This document shows positions 13,007 to 56,314 of a DNA stretch of 64,000 nucleotides, in pieces; within the stretch, counting starts at the first letter, position 1; each line of letters begins with the position of its first letter. The DNA is from a virus. The notes below the pieces were generated by a model. It searched no databases, had not been told where the DNA came from, and saw only the letters and a list, made by a program, of their open reading frames with translations. Where the stretch lies: positions 1-64,000 of the IMG/VR virus record IMGVR_UViG_3300047388_000429. One strand, 5' to 3'. The translations under genes and the position numbers were made by a program.

Positions 13007-13185
13007 TCGACGTCGACAACTGGCATTGGCCCCAATGGGGATGGGTGATCGGGGATTTTACAGTCCTTGTACTCTACGCCTTTGTCCACGGCAGAAAAAT
13101 CAAGGAAAGATATAATTTCTTTGGGCGACTCGCGACCGTTGGAATGAATATTTATATTCTTGTACAGGGAGGATTTTTTAAATGA
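13003..13185 (+). CDS. 60-residue membrane protein
   Basis: One clear hydrophobic segment (GWVIGDFTVLVLYAFVHG) and a second weaker one near the C-terminus. ATGA overlaps on both sides tie it to the Sak4-like and RtcB genes. Function unknown. Confidence 0.45.
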   Translation: MIDVDNWHWPQWGWVIGDFTVLVLYAFVHGRKIKERYNFFGRLATVGMNIYILVQGGFFK

Positions 13186-14393
13186 AGTATATCCATGAAG
13201 GCACGAAACACCCGATAAAGGCTTGGGTCGATCACGTTCCGATCGAGGACGTGGCATTGCAGCAGCTTAAGAACATCGCTGATCTCCCCTTCATTTACAA
13301 ACACGTCGCGGTGATGCCGGACGTCCACTGGGGCATGGGAGCCACGGTCGGGAGCGTTATCGCCACGAAGGGCGCGATCTGTCCAGCCGCCGTCGGGGTG
13401 GATATCGGTTGCGGGATGATGGCCGTTAAGACGACGCTCACGGCTTCGCAGTTGCCGGAGAACCTGCAGGCGATCCGAAGCGAGATCGAGAAGGCGGTCC
13501 CGCACGGGAGGACCAACAACGGGGGAACCGGTGATCGCGGGGCCTGGCATGATATTCCGGATGAAGCAGCTGAAATCTGGGCGAATCAATTCGCTGATCG
13601 CTATGACCAGATCGTTGAAGGCCACCAGAAGGCCCGCGCATATAATTCAGTCAATCATCTGGGTACCCTCGGAAGCGGCAATCACTTCATAGAATTATGC
13701 TTGGATACCGAACAGAACGTGTGGATCATGCTTCACAGCGGCAGCCGCGGGCTCGGGAACAAGATCGGCATGTATTTCATCGAGCGCGCGCAGAATGAAT
13801 GTGAGAAGTATTTTATCAACCTGCCGGATAAGGATCTGGCTTATCTTGTCGACGACACTCCGCTGTTCAGAGACTATGTTCTGGCCGTCGAAATGGCGCA
13901 GGAATTCGCGTATGCCAATCGTGGCCTGATGATGAAGAACGTGCTGGCGGCGATCCGCAAGCACATTCCGAACCTCAGGGTCACCGATATGGCGGTCAAC
14001 TGTCACCACAACTATATTGCAAGGGAGGCCCATTTTGGACAAAACGTCATCGTCACCAGAAAGGGAGCTGTACGAGCGCGTGCGACAGACCTTGGAATCA
14101 TTCCAGGCTCCATGGGGGCTAAGTCCTTCATCGTCCGCGGAAAGGGAAATGTTGATTCGTTCTGTTCATGCAGCCATGGTGCCGGTCGCGTGATGTCCCG
14201 CGGGCAGGCAAAGAAGCTGATTAGCATGGAGGACCATATTCGCGATACCGCTGGCGTCGAATGTCGGAAGGACGCTGATGTCATCGACGAGAGCCCGAAG
14301 GCTTATAAGGATATTGAAAAAGTAATGCTTTCGCAGGCTGATTTGGTTGAAATAGTATATGAACTCAAGCAGATCCTTTGCATTAAGGGGTAA
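13182..14393 (+). CDS. rtcB: RtcB-family RNA ligase
   Basis: 403 residues, the length of compact RtcB2-type ligases. MPDVHWGMG (45-53), VDIGCGM with the metal-binding Cys77, GSGNHF (164-169), HSGSRG (185-190), HHNYI (275-279) and SHGAGRVMSR with the guanylated His332 are all intact. RtcB joins 2',3'-cyclic-phosphate ends to 5'-OH ends using GTP and Mn. In a phage with its own tRNA array the likely task is repair of tRNAs cleaved by host anticodon nucleases. Confidence 0.95.
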   Translation: MKYIHEGTKHPIKAWVDHVPIEDVALQQLKNIADLPFIYKHVAVMPDVHWGMGATVGSVIATKGAICPAAVGVDIGCGMMAVKTTLTASQLPENLQAIRSEIEKAVPHGRTNNGGTGDRGAWHDIPDEAAEIWANQFADRYDQIVEGHQKARAYNSVNHLGTLGSGNHFIELCLDTEQNVWIMLHSGSRGLGNKIGMYFIERAQNECEKYFINLPDKDLAYLVDDTPLFRDYVLAVEMAQEFAYANRGLMMKNVLAAIRKHIPNLRVTDMAVNCHHNYIAREAHFGQNVIVTRKGAVRARATDLGIIPGSMGAKSFIVRGKGNVDSFCSCSHGAGRVMSRGQAKKLISMEDHIRDTAGVECRKDADVIDESPKAYKDIEKVMLSQADLVEIVYELKQILCIKG

Positions 14394-21984: not shown

Positions 21985-22058
21985 TGGTTCTGGGGGCACG
22001 GATCGAACGTGCATTACCTGATTCAAAGTCAGGGGGCCTACCATTAGCCGACCCCAGA
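21985..22058 (-). tRNA. tRNA-Gln(TTG)
   Basis: Full cloverleaf: TCTGGGG/CCCCAGA acceptor, anticodon loop CTTTGAA, T-arm GCACG-TTCGATC-CGTGC, encoded CCA. Confidence 0.92.
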
Positions 22059-22063
22059 AAAAG

Positions 22064-22135
22064 TGGGTTGTGCGCGGGATTTGAACCCGATACGCCGAGT
22101 CACAATCGGCTGCTTTGCCGTTAAGCTACGCACAA
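22064..22135 (-). tRNA. tRNA-His(GTG)
   Basis: Acceptor TTGTGCG/CGCACAA, anticodon loop TTGTGAC, discriminator C as expected for bacterial His, encoded CCA. The base before position 1 is T, so the usual G-1 is not encoded. The T-stem is one pair short. Confidence 0.85.
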
Positions 22136-22138
22136 ACT

Positions 22139-22212
22139 TGGCAGAGGGCCTGTGAATCGAACACAGATTAGCCGTTTTGGAGGCGGCGAGCTTGCCATTA
22201 GCAGAGCCCTCT
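22139..22212 (-). tRNA. tRNA-Trp(CCA)
   Basis: Acceptor AGAGGGC/GCCCTCT, anticodon loop CTCCAAA, discriminator G, encoded CCA. One mismatch at the base of the anticodon loop (C31-A39). Confidence 0.88.
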
Positions 22213-22226
22213 AAATTGGTCGGCGA

Positions 22227-22634
22227 TCACTTGCCGTGTTTTAAATATTTCTCCCGTCGTACTCTCTGTTGTTTTTCCTTAGTCCATGTACTCCACTCAT
22301 CTCTACGCCTTCCCGAGCGGGCAGCGTCCCTTTCTCCCTTAGACGCATAGAGTTGATTAGGCTTCGAAGCCGCAGAACAGTTGCAACTCAAATGCGAGAA
22401 CGCGATGTTTTCTAGGTCAAAGAAAGATGCCAAAGGATCAGCCGCTCCCATCCATGCCTCCTTGTGCTCGATGGACATATCCGACGAAGATATGATCTCA
22501 TTTTGACACCTGAAACACTTGTTAAGGCCAGCTTTACACACTAGTGAGAAAAGAACATTCTTTCTCAGTTTATGTGTGGCAGTACCTATGGGCATCCCGA
22601 GTAAGGACGCTTTCTTGTCGTTATGTTTGCTCAT
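22227..22634 (-). CDS. HNH endonuclease between tRNA genes
   Basis: 135 residues. NKCFRCQNEI (zinc pair), MSIEHKEAWMG (catalytic His) and FFDLENIAFSHLSCN form an HNH core. The basic C-terminus (SGRRRDEWSTW) resembles phage relatives that insert in intergenic spots. It separates tRNA-Trp from tRNA-Pro and shares their strand. Confidence 0.8.
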   Translation of the reverse strand: MSKHNDKKASLLGMPIGTATHKLRKNVLFSLVCKAGLNKCFRCQNEIISSSDMSIEHKEAWMGAADPLASFFDLENIAFSHLSCNCSAASKPNQLYASKGERDAARSGRRRDEWSTWTKEKQQRVRREKYLKHGK

Positions 22635-22668
22635 CGTTTACCTCCGTATTTAATGTTGCAAACGAATG

Positions 22669-22744
22669 TCGGTACGGCAGGATTTGAACCTGCGATCCTC
22701 TGGTCCCAAGCCAGATGGGGACGGCCAGACTCCCCTACGTACCG
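22669..22744 (-). tRNA. tRNA-Pro(TGG)
   Basis: Acceptor CGGTACG/CGTACCG, anticodon loop CTTGGGA. CCA is not encoded (the sequence after the discriminator reads CA), so the host CCA-adding enzyme is needed. Confidence 0.9.
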
Positions 22745-22751
22745 TTTATTT

Positions 22752-22828
22752 TGGTGGGCCGCCTCGGACTTGAACCGAGAGAAAGCTTGTTCCTAAGACA
22801 AGTGCGTCTGCCATTCCGCCAGCAGCCC
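22752..22828 (-). tRNA. tRNA-Leu(TAG)
   Basis: Anticodon loop CTTAGGA on a CTTGT/ACAAG stem; acceptor GGGCTGC/GCGGCCC; encoded CCA. Confidence 0.9.
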
Positions 22829-22829
22829 A

Positions 22830-22912
22830 TGGTGCGAGTAATCAGAATCGAACTGATACGCCGAAGCGAGCGATTTTAAGTCGCTTGCGTCTACCTATTC
22901 CGCCATACTCGC
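22830..22912 (-). tRNA. tRNA-Leu(TAA)
   Basis: Class II tRNA with a variable arm (CGCTTCGGCG). Anticodon loop CTTAAAA; acceptor GCGAGTA/TACTCGC; encoded CCA. Confidence 0.92.
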
Positions 22913-22937
22913 TTATAAAATTCTCCTTTCGCGCAAT

Positions 22938-22967
22938 AAAAAAACCCCGCCTTGTTTAGGGGCGGGG
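22938..22967 (-). terminator. terminator inside the tRNA array
   Basis: On the minus strand CCCCGCC and GGCGGGG form a stem followed by seven U. It ends the short unit that begins at about 23067. Confidence 0.85.
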
Positions 22968-22995
22968 TTCAGAGCTTTCGCACTCTTACCGTATA

Positions 22996-23067
22996 TTACC
23001 GCCCAAGCATAAAGGCTCCCAGTGGGAGTTGCTGTAAATGCCAGGGCTGTAACAAATTCTTTTTCAT
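22996..23067 (-). CDS. 23-residue leaderless mini-ORF in the tRNA array
   Basis: The product begins MKKNLLQPWHLQQLPLG. Its ATG lies exactly six bases after a TATTGT -10 box, so the transcript would start at or next to the start codon. A terminator follows the stop by about 30 bases. A non-coding RNA reading is equally possible. Confidence 0.4.
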   Translation of the reverse strand: MKKNLLQPWHLQQLPLGAFMLGR

Positions 23068-23073
23068 TGTTTT

Positions 23074-23102
23074 ACAATATGATGATTCTTTGAGAATTGC
23101 AA
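23074..23102 (-). promoter_or_regulatory. promoter inside the tRNA array
   Basis: TTGCAA (23102-23097), 17 bp, TATTGT (23079-23074), then six bases and an ATG. The same geometry occurs at 24900-24928. Confidence 0.5.
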
Positions 23103-23108
23103 GAGAAA

Positions 23109-23184
23109 TGGTCCGTCCAGAGAGACTCGAACTCCCAGCCTGAAACTTAGAAGGTTCCTGCTCTTCCAATTGAGCTATGGACGG
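23109..23184 (-). tRNA. tRNA-Arg(TCT)
   Basis: Acceptor CCGTCCA/TGGACGG, anticodon loop CTTCTAA on GGAAC/GTTTC, encoded CCA. Confidence 0.9.
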
Positions 23185-23185
23185 A

Positions 23186-23274
23186 TGGTGCATGGGGATG
23201 GATTTGAACCACCGATGTTAACCCAAAGGGACCTGATCTACAGTCAGGCGCATTCGCCGCTCTGCCACCCATGC
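23186..23274 (-). tRNA. tRNA-Tyr(GTA)
   Basis: Class II with long variable arm, as in bacterial Tyr. Anticodon loop CTGTAGA on CCTGA/TCAGG; acceptor GCATGGG/CCCATGC; encoded CCA. Confidence 0.92.
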
Positions 23275-23283
23275 GTTATCTTT

Positions 23284-23372
23284 TGGCGGATGCTGAAGGG
23301 GTCGAACCTTCGTGAGCCAGCGAGGCTCCGCAGTTTAGCAAACTGCTCGTTTTACCATTCACGCAAGCATCC
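23284..23372 (-). tRNA. tRNA-Ser(GCT)
   Basis: Class II with variable arm. Anticodon loop TTGCTAA on GCAGT/ACTGC; acceptor GGATGCT/AGCATCC; discriminator G; encoded CCA. Confidence 0.92.
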
Positions 23373-23380
23373 AGAAAAAT

Positions 23381-23468
23381 TGGCGGAGGGTAAAGGAGTC
23401 GAACCATCAGCGCATTCAAGGCTGGCGACAGTTTTCAAGACTGTTTGTCCCCGCGGACGCTACCCTCC
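23381..23468 (-). tRNA. tRNA-Ser(TGA)
   Basis: Class II. Anticodon loop CTTGAAA on ACAGT/ACTGT; acceptor GGAGGGT/ACCCTCC; discriminator G; encoded CCA. Confidence 0.92.
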
Positions 23469-23470
23469 GG

Positions 23471-23542
23471 ACTCACGAACCGGACTCGAACCGGCATAAG
23501 CGATTTTGCAGACCGCTGCATAACCTTTCTGACCACCGCGAG
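23471..23542 (-). tRNA. tRNA-Cys(GCA)
   Basis: Anticodon loop CTGCAAA, acceptor CTCGCGG/TCGTGAG, discriminator U as in bacterial Cys. The 3' end reads CCG, so CCA is not fully encoded. Confidence 0.88.
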
Positions 23543-23548
23543 AGAAAT

Positions 23549-23630
23549 TGGCACGCCCGACAGGAGTTGAACCTGCATCTTCCATCCGATTACCTTTGTC
23601 GGCGTTCGTAGCACCGAGGGTTACGGGCGT
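23549..23630 (-). tRNA. atypical tRNA, probable tRNA-Arg(ACG) lacking a D-arm
   Basis: A perfect 7-bp acceptor (ACGCCCG/CGGGCGT), discriminator G, CCA and T-arm GCAGG-TTCAACT-CCTGT are present. The only arm with a normal anticodon loop is CGGTG-CTACGAA-CGCCG (anticodon ACG). Only seven bases lie between acceptor and anticodon stem, so no D-arm can form, while the variable region is about 23 bases long. An alternative hairpin CCGA/TCGG competes with it. Confidence 0.55.
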
Positions 23631-23631
23631 A

Positions 23632-23707
23632 TGGTACGACGAACCGGAGTCGAACCGGCACCCTGCGGGTCCGGAACCCACCGCTCTTCCAGTTGAGCTT
23701 CCGTCGT
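23632..23707 (-). tRNA. tRNA-Arg(CCG)
   Basis: Anticodon loop TTCCGGA on GTGGG/CCCGC, acceptor ACGACGG/TCGTCGT, T-loop TTCGACT, encoded CCA. Confidence 0.9.
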
Positions 23708-23711
23708 AAAT

Positions 23712-23786
23712 TGGCGATCCTTGGGGGTGCTGCCCCCCCGACCTCCGCCGTGACAAGGCGGCGCTCTGCCGTTGAGCTAAAGGACC
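23712..23786 (-). tRNA. tRNA-Asp(GTC) with aberrant T-loop
   Basis: Acceptor GGTCCTT/AAGGATC, discriminator G and anticodon loop TTGTCAC on CCGCC/GGCGG are normal for Asp. The T-arm is GGGGG-GGCAGCA-CCCCC: the loop lacks T54, T55 and A58, which are nearly universal. Confidence 0.75.
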
Positions 23787-23792
23787 ATGAAT

Positions 23793-23879
23793 TGGTGCCA
23801 GCCACAGGATTCGAACCTGCGATGATCTTGCGATGACGGTTTACAAAACCGTTGCCTTCAACCACTCGGCAAAGCTGGC
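23793..23879 (-). tRNA. tRNA-Thr(TGT), class-II-like
   Basis: Anticodon loop TTTGTAA on ACGGT/ACCGT, acceptor GCCAGCT/AGTGGCTGGC region, encoded CCA. The D-arm and a 15-base variable region (ATC-GCAA-GAT hairpin) are of Ser/Leu type although the anticodon is Thr. Confidence 0.85.
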
Positions 23880-24214
23880 AATTTTATTATTCCAGCGTGA
23901 ACTTTACGATGACAATTAGAGCAAAGAACAACGCACTTCTTTAATTCTTTTTCAACTTTTTTAAGAGAATGATTTGTAAAATTACTGATATTTATATTCA
24001 TATCTTTTTTCTTTGGATCTAGATGATGGAAGTCCAAACAATAAGGTTCTTTCTCTCCGCAAACCTTACATTTAAGTTTTTTCTTCATCTCTCTAAATTC
24101 TAACCGTCGTCTTTTTCTCCACGCATTATTCAATTCCATGCGACGTTTTTTATTACGTGGATACCAGATTTCCCGATGGTATTTGGCGATTTCGCCTTTT
24201 GTTTTGTAACTCAT
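23858..24214 (-). CDS. HNH endonuclease between tRNA genes
   Basis: 118 residues from ATG 24214. A long Arg/Lys-rich N-terminus precedes CKVCGEKEPYCLDFHHLDP and CVVLCSNCHRKVHAG, a complete HNH core. The stop codon falls inside the 5' part of the Thr tRNA gene, so the last residues come from tRNA sequence. The gene is AT-rich against the array. Confidence 0.8.
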   Translation of the reverse strand: MSYKTKGEIAKYHREIWYPRNKKRRMELNNAWRKRRRLEFREMKKKLKCKVCGEKEPYCLDFHHLDPKKKDMNINISNFTNHSLKKVEKELKKCVVLCSNCHRKVHAGIIKLPALPSG

Positions 24215-24243
24215 AAAAACACTATATAGCATGTTACAAAAAT

Positions 24244-24322
24244 TGGTAGCAGAGATCGGATTCGAACCGATGATAACAGCGTTATGAGCACCGTGCTTTG
24301 GGCCAGACTAAGCTACTCTGCG
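24244..24322 (-). tRNA. tRNA with CAT anticodon (Met or Ile2)
   Basis: Anticodon loop CTCATAA on CGGTG/CGCTG, D-stem GCTT/AAGC, T-loop TTCGAAT, encoded CCA. The first acceptor pair is a C1-U72 mismatch above six good pairs. Confidence 0.85.
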
Positions 24323-24328
24323 TCAATT

Positions 24329-24403
24329 TGGTGCGCTGGCAGGGAGTTGAACCCTGTCCTCAAGCTTGGAAGGCTCGCATGCACCCACCAACAACTCCAG
24401 CGC
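24329..24403 (-). tRNA. tRNA-Gly(TCC)
   Basis: Acceptor GCGCTGG/CCAGCGC, anticodon loop CTTCCAA on CGAGC/GCTTG, T-arm CAGGG-type, encoded CCA. The D-stem is weak (three pairs). Confidence 0.85.
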
Positions 24404-24410
24404 ATTATCT

Positions 24411-24485
24411 TGGCGGGGAACTGTGGAATTGAACCACATACGCGCGGACCTTCAAACCGCCGCTCTACCGATGAGCTAGATCCCC
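24411..24485 (-). tRNA. tRNA-Phe(GAA)
   Basis: Loop TTGAAGG gives anticodon GAA, on GCGGT/TCCGC with one T-T mismatch; D-arm and T-arm are normal; encoded CCA. The discriminator is G rather than the usual A, so identity is a little less certain. Confidence 0.75.
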
Positions 24486-24551
24486 AAAGTTAAACACGCG
24501 GCCGTGTGAGTTTCGGCTCTTACACCATCGTGGCAGACGGGTTGCGTGAAT
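24486..24551. other. 66-bp spacer, no gene recognised
   Basis: It can form GTGT-GAG/CTC-ACAC hairpins on the minus strand, but it lacks a T-arm and an anticodon arm. It may be a decayed tRNA or a spacer. Confidence 0.3.
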
Positions 24552-24627
24552 TGGCTCCCGAGAGTGGACTCGAACCACTGACAACTTGATTAACAGTCAA
24601 GGACTCTACCAACTGAGCTACTCGGAA
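24552..24627 (-). tRNA. tRNA-Asn(GTT)
   Basis: Anticodon loop CTGTTAA on CTTGA/TCAAG, acceptor TTCCGAG/CTCGGGA, discriminator G, encoded CCA. Confidence 0.92.
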
Positions 24628-24638
24628 TAATTTTTATT

Positions 24639-24724
24639 TGGCCGGCGGGGCAGGACTTGAACCTGCGACCTCTTCATCCAGTGCGCATGGCATGAAGCGC
24701 TCTAACCAACTGAGCTACCCGCCG
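24639..24724 (-). tRNA. tRNA-like gene with expanded anticodon arm
   Basis: Acceptor CGGCGGG/CCCGCCG, D-arm, 5-base variable loop, T-arm and CCA are canonical. Between the stem halves CTTCA and TGAAG are 16 bases instead of seven (loop region TGCCATGCGCACTGGA). They fold into an extended stem with a bulged G and a loop TGCGCAC. No loop has U33, so the anticodon cannot be assigned. Confidence 0.6.
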
Positions 24725-24756
24725 AAAAATCATCATATCAACAATGTTCAATAACC

Positions 24757-24789
24757 AAAACAAAAACCCCGCTTCTTTTAGGAGCGGGG
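24757..24789 (-). terminator. terminator inside the tRNA array
   Basis: Stem CCCCGCT/AGCGGGG (24767-24773, 24783-24789) followed on the minus strand by UUUUUGUUUUGG. A T-rich stretch on the other side makes it possibly bidirectional. Confidence 0.85.
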
Positions 24790-24818
24790 CTTTGTGTTTT
24801 TAACAGGGAGAAAAAGAT

Positions 24819-24893
24819 TTACACAAATAGCCCCTCGCCGCTTCTTCCGAAGCCGCGGTCATAGGACATATTTGATGTGCATATCGTTTTCAT
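24819..24893 (-). CDS. 24-residue leaderless mini-ORF in the tRNA array
   Basis: The product begins MKTICTSNMSYDRGFGRSG. Its ATG is six bases after a GATACT -10 box. The same DNA contains a GCTTC-GGAA-GAAGC hairpin, so the unit could instead be an sRNA of about 130 nt that ends at the terminator at 24757-24789. Confidence 0.4.
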   Translation of the reverse strand: MKTICTSNMSYDRGFGRSGEGLFV

Positions 24894-24899
24894 TCTTTC

Positions 24900-24928
24900 A
24901 GTATCTATCAGATTCGCTAAAAAGTCAA
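24900..24928 (-). promoter_or_regulatory. promoter inside the tRNA array
   Basis: TTGACT (24928-24923), 17 bp, GATACT (24905-24900), then six bases and an ATG. It lies directly downstream of the tRNA-Val gene. Confidence 0.6.
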
Positions 24929-24929
24929 A

Positions 24930-25003
24930 TGGTACTCGGTGAAGGAATCGAACCATCGTCAACTGCATGTAAGGCAGCCACTCTCCCATTGAGCTAACCG
25001 AGC
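24930..25003 (-). tRNA. tRNA-Val(TAC)
   Basis: Acceptor GCTCGGT/ACCGAGT, anticodon loop CTTACAT, encoded CCA. Confidence 0.9.
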
Positions 25004-25008
25004 ACATC

Positions 25009-25048
25009 CGGCGCAGCGATTGTTTGGGCCATGACAGTCGCTGCGCCG
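25009..25048 (-). repeat. 11-bp inverted repeat between two tRNA genes
   Basis: CGGCGCAGCGA (25009-25019) and TCGCTGCGCCG (25038-25048) are perfectly complementary with an 18-base loop and no U-run. A processing hairpin between tRNA-Ala and tRNA-Val is a reasonable reading. Confidence 0.6.
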
Positions 25049-25053
25049 AAACT

Positions 25054-25130
25054 TGGTGGACCCTGCGAGAATCGAACTCGCCTCAGTCTGCTTGCAAAGC
25101 AGTCTCGCCCCCCTTGGTACATGAGAGCCC
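25054..25130 (-). tRNA. tRNA-Ala(TGC)
   Basis: Acceptor GGGCTCT/AGGGTCC contains the G3-U70 pair that marks alanine tRNAs. Anticodon loop TTTGCAA on a four-pair stem; encoded CCA. Confidence 0.88.
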
Positions 25131-25137
25131 ACATATT

Positions 25138-25212
25138 TGGTCGGTGCGATGGGAATTGAACCCATTTTATACGCCTTAAAAGGGCGCTGCCTGACCGGCC
25201 GGCTCCGCACCG
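25138..25212 (-). tRNA. tRNA-Lys(TTT)
   Basis: Anticodon loop CTTTTAA on GCGCC/GGCGT, acceptor CGGTGCG/CGCACCG, encoded CCA. Confidence 0.9.
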
Positions 25213-25216
25213 TAAT

Positions 25217-25291
25217 TGGTTGAGGCGAAGGGAATCGAACCCCACGTCTAACGGTTATCAACCGCTTGCACTGCCATTGTGCTACACCTCA
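25217..25291 (-). tRNA. tRNA-Ile(GAT)
   Basis: Anticodon loop TTGATAA, acceptor TGAGGTG/CGCCTCA, T-loop TTCGATT, encoded CCA. Confidence 0.9.
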
Positions 25292-25313
25292 GAAATCTGT
25301 TTCCTCCCGCATA

Positions 25314-25341
25314 ATAAAAAACCCGCCTTTGTGGGGCGGGT
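25314..25341 (-). terminator. terminator inside the tRNA array
   Basis: ACCCGCC/GGCGGGT stem (25321-25327, 25335-25341) followed on the minus strand by UUUUUAUUAU. It divides the tRNA-Glu/tRNA-Met segment from the rest. Confidence 0.85.
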
Positions 25342-25369
25342 GCAAAATTCAAGACGAATTTGACCAGCC

Positions 25370-25423
25370 CTATTTGTCGGGTTTAATCGCTTTCGCCACA
25401 ATCTTTACAGTCTCTCGTCTCAT
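25370..25423 (-). CDS. 17-residue mini-ORF with ribosome site
   Basis: The ATG at 25423 has GAGGAAG nine bases upstream; the product is MRRETVKIVAKAIKPDK. It lies between tRNA-Glu and a terminator. The good ribosome site is the only support. Confidence 0.3.
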   Translation of the reverse strand: MRRETVKIVAKAIKPDK

Positions 25424-25441
25424 CTCGTTCTTCCTCTACTT

Positions 25442-25515
25442 TGGCGCGGCCAACGGGAATTGAACCCGTGTTGTCCGATTGAAAGTCGGCTTTCCTGCCG
25501 TTAGAAGATGGCCGC
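25442..25515 (-). tRNA. tRNA-Glu(TTC)
   Basis: Anticodon loop CTTTCAA on CCGA/TCGG, acceptor GCGGCCA/TGGCCGC, discriminator G, encoded CCA. Confidence 0.92.
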
Positions 25516-25612
25516 TTAAAGTAGGCTAAGCCATCTGTATTTTTCAGGGGTTTGCTACGCTGGCCCCCTGCGGCCTCTGTACGTCCCAAACCGTTAAGTG
25601 AGGGACCAAAAT

Positions 25613-25687
25613 TGGTTGCGAAGCTTGGAATTGAACCAAGTACCTGCTGCTTATGAGGCAGCCGAGCTACCGATGCTCTACTCCGCG
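25613..25687 (-). tRNA. initiator-like tRNA-fMet(CAT)
   Basis: Anticodon loop CTCATAA. Acceptor CGCGGAG/CTTCGCA has the unpaired C1-A72 typical of bacterial initiators, and the D-stem GAGC/GCTC gives the A11-U24 pair. The anticodon stem (GCTGC/GCAGC) lacks the full three G-C pairs of classic initiators. Encoded CCA. Confidence 0.85.
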
Positions 25688-25693
25688 ATTTTC

Positions 25694-25722
25694 ACTTTAT
25701 AGGAGTTGTAATTTTATTTCAA
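25694..25722 (-). promoter_or_regulatory. promoter of the tRNA array
   Basis: TTGAAA (25722-25717), 17 bp and TAAAGT (25699-25694) end seven bases before the 5' end of the first tRNA, in the gap after a structural-region gene. Confidence 0.6.
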
Positions 25723-54960: not shown

Positions 54961-55073
54961 TTGTAGACCACGACTAAACCGGCGATGAAGAACATGAACA
55001 GAAGAGTCCCGATATACCAGTATGGAAAAAACTTTACAGCGCGGTCATCGGAAACGGATTTCTTCTTCTTCAC
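54957..55073 (-). CDS. 38-residue membrane protein between terminase and portal
   Basis: It starts at GTG 55073 inside the terminase stop and its own stop overlaps the portal ATG, so both junctions are coupled. KKKKSVSDDRAVKFFPYWY is followed by one span (IGTLLFMFFIAGLVVVY). Unknown function. Confidence 0.5.
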   Translation of the reverse strand: MKKKKSVSDDRAVKFFPYWYIGTLLFMFFIAGLVVVYK

Positions 55074-56314
55074 ATGAACCACCCATTTTTCTTCTTGATC
55101 AGGGGAGCAAGCGCGTATCGGCAGGCGTCGATCCCGTGGTCATATTTTGATATTATGTCCGGAAGCACATCGCGTGTCAATCTGTCGATCTTATACCGGT
55201 ACGATCTCATTTCCTGAATAAGGTTAACGCAGCGCGGGTGGATCACGATATTGTAGCTCTTCATGATCGTGATCCCGTCCTCGACGCTCCCGCTCCATTT
55301 CTCTGCGGCCTCGATGTCGAACCCGCGGGCCTTGAGGTGCGCGATCGTCTCCGGCCGCGAGCAGTCGGCGCGTATTTTGTATCTCCGCGAGTCCGGAATC
55401 TTATCGTACATCTTCGGCATGTCGTCGAGCATGACGCCAATACCATATTCTTCATATTCGATGTAGAGATTCCTGTCCTTGATCCAGACCTTGACCAGCG
55501 TGTTCGGGTCCTGCGAGAACCCGAAGTCGGCCCCGAAGTACGGGCCATCCCAGTCCGGCTCGGGGGTAAAGCTCTCGACGCGATAACAGCCGGAGAAGAT
55601 GATCGCGTCCGTGCGCCCGACCTCGACTCCCATGTAGACGTGGGCGTGCTTCTCCGGCCGGTCTTTCTCCATGGCCGCCGCGTCCTTCAGGAATTGCGGG
55701 CCCAGCCATTCCGGCGGCGACTGCTTGTAATTGCTCTGGTGGACCAGCCGCGAGGGGTCGACGCGACGCGCCTCCTCGTTGATCCACGCGAAGGGCTCGG
55801 CCGGCGGGTTGTAGGTCACGAATTCCGTGAACACGGTGCCCCCACGGAGAACCGAGATCCGGACGCTCTCCATTTCCTCGAGATCCGTGTACTCCGCCCC
55901 TTCCTCGAACCACAGATATTTCAAATACCCCTTTTTGGTCTTCACGGATTTCATCTTCTGCGCGTCGTCGAGGCCGCGGAGCATGATCTTCTGGCCGGTC
56001 GGCAGATACGTGATCTCGTCGTCGCTCTTGTGGGTCTTGAAGAACAAGGACCATCCGAGCTTGTCTATCGCCCACTCGAAGGTCGGGCGCACACTGTCCT
56101 TCAGGGACGCCGCGGTCTTTCTGAAAGCGATGCCGTTCGCCAGCGGGTCCTCGACTATCCCCTTCACGATCTCGATGGCCGTGAACGAGGACTTCAAGGA
56201 CCCACGGCCGCCGCGCAGCCAGAACGAAGAATAGACGTTAGCGCGTATCGCGTTGTGGACCCCGTAAAACGCGGGACCGATCAGGTCCGTGAGCTGGACA
56301 CCATCACTCGACAT
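55070..56314 (-). CDS. terL: terminase large subunit
   Basis: 414 residues, PBSX-type. Walker A GGRGSLKS at 35-42, Walker B/catalytic FEEGAE near 136, coupling motif VTYNPP near 168, and nuclease acids in GADFGFSQDP (near 260), ADCSRPETI and DHGIDACRYA. It packages DNA into the prohead using ATP and cuts concatemers. Confidence 0.92.
   Translation of the reverse strand: MSSDGVQLTDLIGPAFYGVHNAIRANVYSSFWLRGGRGSLKSSFTAIEIVKGIVEDPLANGIAFRKTAASLKDSVRPTFEWAIDKLGWSLFFKTHKSDDEITYLPTGQKIMLRGLDDAQKMKSVKTKKGYLKYLWFEEGAEYTDLEEMESVRISVLRGGTVFTEFVTYNPPAEPFAWINEEARRVDPSRLVHQSNYKQSPPEWLGPQFLKDAAAMEKDRPEKHAHVYMGVEVGRTDAIIFSGCYRVESFTPEPDWDGPYFGADFGFSQDPNTLVKVWIKDRNLYIEYEEYGIGVMLDDMPKMYDKIPDSRRYKIRADCSRPETIAHLKARGFDIEAAEKWSGSVEDGITIMKSYNIVIHPRCVNLIQEMRSYRYKIDRLTRDVLPDIISKYDHGIDACRYALAPLIKKKNGWFM

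Follow-up and report, generated by a model that had tools for sequence, protein, structure and literature searches.

The tRNA genes of this phage are probably controlled by attenuation: with a probability of about 0.85, the array lies under three ribosome-mediated transcription attenuators, every one of them matched to the tRNAs that it governs. The window analysed here, 64,000 nucleotides of a 70.4-kb phage contig, carries on its minus strand an array of 24 ordinary and two aberrant tRNA genes. The array falls into four blocks, separated by three micro-ORFs of 17, 24 and 23 codons, behind each of which lies an intrinsic terminator. The spelling of these leaders suggests that the virus turns on replacement tRNAs upon a shortage in the cell.

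The tRNA array and its four blocks

A sequence-only reading had counted 26 tRNA or tRNA-like genes with every amino acid represented, and ARAGORN, Rfam and inspection together bear this out. ARAGORN at default settings detected 23 tRNA genes (21985–25687, minus strand), to which Rfam added Asp(GTC), at 51.0 bits, and relaxed ARAGORN settings added Ser(TGA); the Ala tRNA was found by ARAGORN only. The 26th, tRNA-like unit (23548–23628) lacks a D arm, and carries an ACG (Arg) anticodon in the loop CTACGAA. Among the single-copy tRNAs on which that reading leaned, His and Cys score 53 bits and 37 bits in Rfam, while Trp was detected by ARAGORN but missed by Rfam (C31-A39 mismatch); the Trp tRNA of a relative, G001, scores 49.7 bits. 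The proposed initiator-type tRNA has the C1×A72 mismatch, but its anticodon stem lacks the three G-C pairs. Since tRNA-His lacks G-1, and tRNA-Thr is a class II tRNA with a Ser-like body, the aminoacylation of some array tRNAs is uncertain. The tRNA at 24639–24725 possesses a 16-nt anticodon loop or an extended stem, and no clear anticodon. An intron in this tRNA was considered and rejected: the ARAGORN anticodons are inconsistent (ATG, incomplete, or CTG with an intron of 9 nt), U33 is not restored by excising any 9 nt, and the tRNA, absent from G001, was left unassigned.

The features of the array are listed below, in the direction of transcription. Members of block 2 were identified with ARAGORN (default and relaxed settings), Rfam and inspection.

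25694–25722, minus strand: promoter P0, TTGAAA-17-TAAAGT, for the unattenuated block 0 (promoter scan)
25442–25687, minus strand: block 0, without leader; tRNA-Met(CAT) initiator 25613–25687 and tRNA-Glu(TTC) 25442–25515 (ARAGORN)
25370–25423, minus strand: leader ORF 1, MRRETVKIVAKAIKPDK, with core V K I V A K A I K (homologous ORFs occur in G001 and L121)
25321–25341, minus strand: terminator 1, whose 5' arm has GGGC at the leader 1 stop codon as predicted alternative partner (terminator scan, folding)
24930–25291, minus strand: block 1, Ile(GAT), Lys(TTT), Ala(TGC), Val(TAC) (ARAGORN)
24900–24928, minus strand: promoter P2, TTGACT-17-GATACT, 6 nt 5' of the leader 2 ATG (promoter scan)
24819–24893, minus strand: leader ORF 2, MKTICTSNMSYDRGFGRSGEGLFV, with a core that includes T C S N M Y D R G F (leader comparison)
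24765–24791, minus strand: terminator 2, with predicted competing antiterminator GGGGCU..UUGUGU × ACACAA..AGCCCC (folding)
23109–24725, minus strand: block 2; first the odd tRNA 24639–24725, Asn, Phe, Gly, Met and an HNH ORF (23858–24232), then Thr, Asp, Arg(CCG), the D-armless Arg(ACG) 23548–23628, Cys, Ser(TGA), Ser(GCT), Tyr, Arg(TCT)
23074–23102, minus strand: weak promoter-like P3, TTGCAA-17-TATTGT, 6 nt 5' of the leader 3 ATG (read from sequence)
22996–23067, minus strand: leader ORF 3, MKKNLLQPWHLQQLPLGAFMLGR, with core LLQPWHLQQLPL (leader comparison)
22945–22967, minus strand: terminator 3, with predicted competing antiterminator GGGCGG (last codons) × CCGCCC (folding)
21985–22912, minus strand: block 3, Leu(TAA), Leu(TAG), Pro(TGG), an HNH-like ORF (22227–22634), Trp(CCA), His(GTG), Gln(TTG) (ARAGORN)

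The promoter that the sequence-only reading had placed at 25694–25722 is present, but it does not drive the array alone, as was claimed, because three intrinsic terminators interrupt the array; at least one of the three internal leader/terminator units, all of which had escaped that reading, has a recognisable promoter of its own. P0-like promoters are found upstream of the initiator tRNA in G001 and, by eye, in a third phage (L121). P3 lies below the cut-off of the promoter scan, and its spacing to the ATG is equal in G001. All three terminators in the window consist of a GC-rich hairpin and a T-run; terminator 1 was called by the terminator scan, as were terminators 1 and 3 of G001. No clear Shine-Dalgarno sequence was identified for leaders 2 and 3, which are possibly leaderless.

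Leader codons and the tRNAs beyond each terminator

I compared the codons of each leader with the tRNAs downstream of it. All 22 isoacceptors of blocks 1–3 have their codon in the leader of their own block, in both the window phage and G001, and the match reaches the isoacceptor level, with two classes each of Ser, Arg and Leu represented. When block assignments were shuffled, a 22/22 match was equalled in 0 and 5 of 200,000 trials for the two genomes. In ORFs of the phage itself, codon windows of equal length contain all families in 1887 of 13449 cases for block 1, 63 of 13179 for block 3, and a single one of 13134 for block 2. Within the cores, whose boundaries were set post hoc after inspection of the sequences, own-block codons account for 9/9, 16/17 and 12/12 positions in the window, and 8/9, 16/17 and 12/12 in G001 (background 0.27, 0.48 and 0.19). 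For the conserved ATA codon of leader 2, no cognate tRNA could be assigned with certainty.

The relative G001 (67 kb) has ∼70% DNA identity to the window phage, and keeps the tRNA set in the same order, some of its block members having been assigned by eye and folding. The tRNA set, the leaders, the terminators and the codon match can be read from the sequence itself; the match is conserved in this second phage, and leader 1 also in the third. The window phage and G001 are related, and the evidence from them is therefore not fully independent. IMG/VR scans with sheath, baseplate and capsid returned G001 as the sole relative, and a terminase scan returned four other contigs, the one close one (L003, 79%) just 4.2 kb long. 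A pattern search with leader 1 matched G001 and L121; its GTDB matches have no tRNAs nearby, and were taken as chance. A tblastn search of known phages with leaders 2 and 3 gave nothing meaningful. When ORF-terminator-tRNA units were ranked by codon match, leaders 1 and 3 came out on top. The same unit scan turned up nothing convincing when applied to nine other phage arrays (L030, L049, L063, L083, T5, the first 50 kb of XacN1, Amme-3, pf16 and OneUp); in XacN1, the top candidate proved to be the tail end of a longer annotated ORF.

The residue order of leaders 2 and 3 differs between the window phage and G001, with the amino-acid set unchanged. This bears on whether the array is an ordinary phage tRNA cluster, in which decaying genes left behind unrelated micro-ORFs and terminators and the codon match is coincidental. 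Small ORFs and homing nucleases are indeed frequent in phage tRNA clusters such as those of T5 and XacN1, but the complete match in two genomes, its rarity among shuffles and, for block 2, among the phage's codon windows, and the composition kept while order changes make coincidence hardly credible. It is also very unlikely that the leaders are functional micropeptides, for example inhibitors, with the control of tRNA blocks incidental. The protein sequence of leader 1 is highly conserved across the three phages, as a micropeptide would be; leaders 2 and 3 however preserve composition rather than sequence, and the predicted antiterminator strand overlaps the last leader codons.

Predicted RNA switch and proposed mechanism

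Folding of the nascent RNA predicts two alternative structures that depend on ribosome position. For all seven leaders of the three phages (7/7), a ribosome in the codon core lets the antiterminator take the 5' arm of the terminator, which is captured with P ∼0.6–1.0 for a ribosome over most of the core, and freed (capture P ≤0.15) when the ribosome is at the stop codon. Three leaders show a stronger effect than any of 300 shuffles, and three others reach P 0.007–0.03; the effect in G001 leader 2 is not clearly above shuffles (35/300). In a simple footprint model, a ribosome on the last core codons of leader 2 (AGC/GGC in the window, TGC in G001) already covers the antiterminator strand. Once complete, terminators 2 and 3 have a higher equilibrium stability than their antiterminators, and these two switches must therefore act kinetically.

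Each unit thus has a translatable short leader upstream, enriched in codons tied to the controlled genes, an intrinsic terminator between leader ORF and tRNAs, and a predicted ribosome-controlled antiterminator. No T-box riboswitch was found among the Rfam covariance-model matches in the window. In the proposed mechanism, the polymerase would transcribe a short leader ORF, spelled with codons for exactly the tRNAs beyond the terminator, and then the terminator itself. With all those charged tRNAs plentiful, the ribosome would reach the stop codon and cover the antiterminator strand, allowing the terminator to fold and keeping the tRNAs silent. Scarcity of any single one would make the ribosome pause in the codon core; the exposed strand would then capture the terminator 5' arm, and the polymerase would continue into the block that supplies the missing tRNA. 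Block 0, with the initiator and Glu tRNAs, comes first and has no leader.

I infer that the switch is functional in vivo, and that loss of host tRNAs, to anticodon nucleases or host shut-off, drove its evolution instead of amino-acid starvation, given that it yields tRNA and not biosynthetic enzymes. A somewhat probable reading is that of an inducible replacement set, in which three multi-tRNA sensors detect when any one of the 22 isoacceptor families is lost, for example by anticodon-nuclease attack, and release only the block with the missing tRNA; host anticodon nucleases would be the presumed cause of the shortage. It is possible, if doubtful, that the attenuation is real but senses amino-acid supply or general translation rate, as a homeostatic set-point for tRNA. 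Classical attenuators react to amino-acid limitation (PMC1183508), and starvation would trigger these leaders too, because leader translation reports charged tRNA. Amino-acid starvation is not cured by extra tRNA, however, and coverage of both Ser, Arg and Leu classes fits the sensing of individual tRNAs.

RtcB, known systems and significance

The sequence-only reading had coupled the array to an RtcB ligase, which was located as follows.

13182–14393, plus strand: rtcB (Pfam profile, phrog_1075)

The gene is intact as had been stated, a full-length member of the viral RtcB RNA ligases (phrog_1075) that matches PF01139 at 1.8e-129 over profile positions 1–426 of 426. In other phages, rtcB adjoins or sits inside tRNA arrays, as in L030 with its 29 tRNAs. 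Such placement, and the intact gene, would agree with a module for tRNA repair and replacement under one promoter, which I nevertheless consider unlikely: here rtcB lies 7.6 kb from the array on the other strand, three terminators interrupt the array internally, and G001 has the whole array and its leaders without any rtcB homologue. The module is rejected as the core system for this last reason, and rtcB, being unlinked to the array in G001, is treated as a separate gene. The proposal that the phage supplies its own tRNA pool loses its RtcB part, but is otherwise strengthened, because the full set is conserved in order in G001 and appears to be regulated in response to tRNA shortage.

In amino-acid operon attenuators, a short leader ORF rich in control codons precedes mutually exclusive antiterminator and terminator structures, and ribosome position is the switch (PMC1183508). 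Those of trp, his, thr, leu, ilvGMEDA and pheA have the same architecture as that modelled for the phage leaders, but they control biosynthetic enzymes, whereas the phage units would control tRNAs, one leader holding control codons for up to 10 amino acids (12 isoacceptor families), and three such units being chained in one array. The arrays of XacN1 (Xanthomonas) and T5 (Escherichia) are likewise large clusters for all or nearly all amino acids, with an initiator-type tRNA and interspersed homing nucleases. They belong to genomes of 122–385 kb, compared with a ∼70-kb contig here, and the leader scan found nothing comparable in T5 or the scanned part of XacN1; the window array has about one tRNA per codon box, with leader/terminator units. 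Phage tRNAs that evade tRNA-cleaving defences are reported in two studies (PMC10264068, PMC11555353), which share the idea that replacement tRNAs answer tRNA loss; in the window phage, by comparison, supply appears inducible by shortage. A keyword search of PMC10264068 found no mention of attenuation or leader peptides. A literature search for leader peptides with tRNA arrays or tRNA operons, with most subscription journals outside its coverage, returned nothing relevant, and in the literature searched I found no earlier report of attenuation control of tRNA genes.

A regulator reveals the condition that a gene set serves. The purpose of phage tRNA genes has been debated for decades, between codon compensation and insurance against tRNA-cleaving defences. 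If the leaders work as predicted, the tRNAs are made when a particular charged tRNA is missing, which would point to tRNA loss as the selective pressure. Leader-peptide attenuation, familiar from amino-acid operons, would then also apply to tRNA genes, and a single leader would read as many as 10 amino acids. Should the tRNAs indeed form an inducible replacement set, this would be an undescribed class of regulation, and a direct explanation for why this phage carries them.

The phage, its relative and the tRNA set

The window belongs to the 70,425-bp virus record G000, from a phage with a contractile tail; it encodes sheath, baseplate, capsid and portal proteins, and its large terminase gene lies at 55070-56314. 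A nucleotide search found no close relatives among annotated phages. The IMG/VR contig IMGVR_UViG_3300021083_000196 (67,376 bp, hereafter G001) is collinear with it, with roughly 65-77% nucleotide identity across most of the structural region, and 76-82% amino-acid identity for the sheath, capsid and baseplate proteins. In G000 (L002), a phosphoribosyl pyrophosphate synthetase gene adjoins a nicotinamide phosphoribosyltransferase gene (63900-66819, Pfam), resembling NAD-rebuilding anti-defence gene pairs, and a gene for an IS1595-type transposase lies at 67685-68605, close to the contig end.

The sequence-only reading proposed a tRNA array for all 20 amino acids, and this is upheld. ARAGORN identifies 23 tRNA genes, to which Rfam adds Asp(GTC), relaxed ARAGORN settings add Ser(TGA), and a D-armless unit adds Arg(ACG). 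There is about one tRNA per codon box for the 20/20 amino acids, and U34 anticodons serve the four-codon boxes, Arg excepted. The tRNA order is identical in G001: initiator Met, Glu, Ile, Lys, Ala, Val, Asn, Phe, Gly, Met, Thr, Asp, Arg, Cys, Ser, Ser, Tyr, Arg, Leu, Leu, Pro, Trp, His, Gln. Such full-set arrays are already known, as in XacN1 (PMC5852040).

Individual features of the array
22064-22135, minus strand: tRNA-His, C73 present, position -1 U rather than G
22227-22634 and 23858-24232, minus strand: two ORFs inside the array
23548-23628, minus strand: D-armless tRNA-like unit, perfect CTACGAA loop, ACG anticodon
23793-23879, minus strand: tRNA-Thr(TGT), long variable arm, Ser-type D arm
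24244-24322, minus strand: CAT tRNA (block 2 Met), 1:72 mismatch C1xU72, kept in G001
24639-24725, minus strand: odd tRNA, 16-nt anticodon loop, or 9-bp anticodon stem with a bulge; 58 bits in Rfam
25613-25687, minus strand: CAT tRNA (initiator), 1:72 mismatch C1xA72

The odd tRNA has no clear anticodon, and is missing from G001. The best E. coli match of tRNA-Thr(TGT) is a tRNA-Ser, whereas the G001 gene at that site is a normal class I tRNA-Thr; identity positions G1-C72, C2-G71 and A73 fit Thr, and the molecule might be charged with either Ser or Thr. One of the two ORFs is HNH-like (Pfam HNH 4e-4, just below cut-off), and the other has no match but carries HNH-like motifs; a homologue of ORF 23858-24232 is found in G001, beside the Asp/Arg tRNAs.

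Leader ORFs and the tRNAs that follow them

Side-by-side reading of the two arrays revealed three short ORFs between the tRNAs, each followed by a GC-rich hairpin, a T-run and a block of tRNAs. The leader peptides 1, 2 and 3 are MRRETVKIVAKAIKPDK, MKTICTSNMSYDRGFGRSGEGLFV and MKKNLLQPWHLQQLPLGAFMLGR in the window, and MLRETNKIVAKAIKPIK, MKTISTSMYSSDRTFNRGCGAGHLV and MKTNLLQLWHQPLPQLGVFVLGRM in G001; in L121, a third phage fragment, MRRETNKIVAKAIKPDR precedes a terminator, then Ile and Lys tRNAs. Each peptide is made up mainly of the amino acids of the tRNAs that follow. Leader 1, with the core KIVAKAIK, precedes Ile, Lys, Ala and Val; leader 2 holds 10/10 amino acids of its block (Asn, Phe, Gly, Met, Thr, Asp, Arg, Cys, Ser, Tyr); and leader 3, with LLQPWHLQQLPL, precedes Leu, Pro, Trp, His and Gln. 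This extends to codon families in both phages, with serine as TCN and AGY and arginine as CGN and AGA in leader 2, and leucine as TTR and CTN in leader 3. The CGC codon in leader 2 may be served by the D-armless Arg(ACG) unit.

All isoacceptor families of blocks 1-3 are found in their own leader, 22/22 in the window and 22/22 in G001. Random reassignment of tRNAs to blocks gave on average 13.4 and 14.7 matches, reaching 22 in 0 and 5 of 200,000 trials, and all twelve block 2 families occurred in 1/13,134 random windows of the phage's own codons at leader 2 length. In leaders 2 and 3 the residue order differs between the phages while the amino-acid set is complete in both, as expected if selection acts on codon content, not peptide sequence.

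Both phages keep an ATA codon in the leader 2 core (24882-24884, minus strand) for which no cognate tRNA is certain. A candidate reader is the tRNA called Met(CAT) in block 2, which may instead be an Ile(CAU) tRNA that recognises ATA once lysidine-modified.

Folding of the leader RNA and promoters

I folded the transcript with the terminator 5' arm and loop already made and the 3' arm still missing, moving the ribosome codon by codon, with its footprint reaching 12 nt downstream from the first base of the A site. For most ribosome positions within the core, the 5' arm is predicted to be captured (P about 0.6-1.0) by an upstream strand that overlaps the leader's last codons or lies next to them; with the ribosome at the stop codon, the arm is predicted free (capture P at most 0.15). 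Both predictions hold in 7/7 leaders. Shuffles of the exposed segment matched this difference in 0/300 cases for three leaders, 2-9/300 for three, and 35/300 for G001 leader 2. The leader 2 pairing UUUG-UGU x ACA-CAAA of the window corresponds to UUUGGUGU x ACAUCAAA in G001, one base longer on each side, where the added bases can pair as G-U. When the RNA is folded in full at equilibrium, leader 1 switches, while terminators 2 and 3 win at any ribosome position, so that the model for leaders 2 and 3 depends on folding order during transcription. The modeled RNA of the leaders fits a switch.

P0 and P2 were both identified by promoter scanning:
25722-25694, minus strand: P0, before block 0 (initiator Met and Glu)
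24928-24900, minus strand: P2, before leader 2

P0 was also noted in the sequence-only reading; since the 5 promoter-like sites of the region are not far above the 3.1 in shuffles, both are suggestive only. P3, before leader 3, matches less well. Both P2 and P3 stop 6 nt short of the leader ATG, which suggests leaderless messages for leaders 2 and 3, and leader 1 has a ribosome site of AGAGGAAG type.

RtcB and the possible purpose of the array

The array had also been paired with an RtcB ligase. The rtcB gene is indeed intact, but does not belong to the attenuated system, and tblastn found no homologue in G001. In other viral contigs rtcB is often a neighbour of tRNA genes: it directly adjoins them, often tRNA-Pro, in L010, L021, L030, L041, L046, L047, L048, L049 and L054, and in L030 it sits within a 29-tRNA array. 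A general link between rtcB and tRNA genes is therefore plausible.

Judged on sequence criteria, the array has the anatomy known from the ribosome-mediated attenuators of amino-acid operons (PMC1183508). Neither the literature searched nor the nine other phage arrays scanned yielded a case of leader-peptide control over tRNA genes; the switch itself is classical, but the genes under its control and the sensors for many amino acids appear new. In amino-acid operons, shortage of charged tRNA leads to synthesis of the amino acid, whereas in the phage array it would lead to synthesis of tRNA. This would be useful mainly when tRNA itself is missing, for example after anticodon nuclease cleavage, the setting proposed for phage tRNAs (PMC10264068). 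I infer that the purpose of the array is to answer the loss of tRNA, as after such cleavage.
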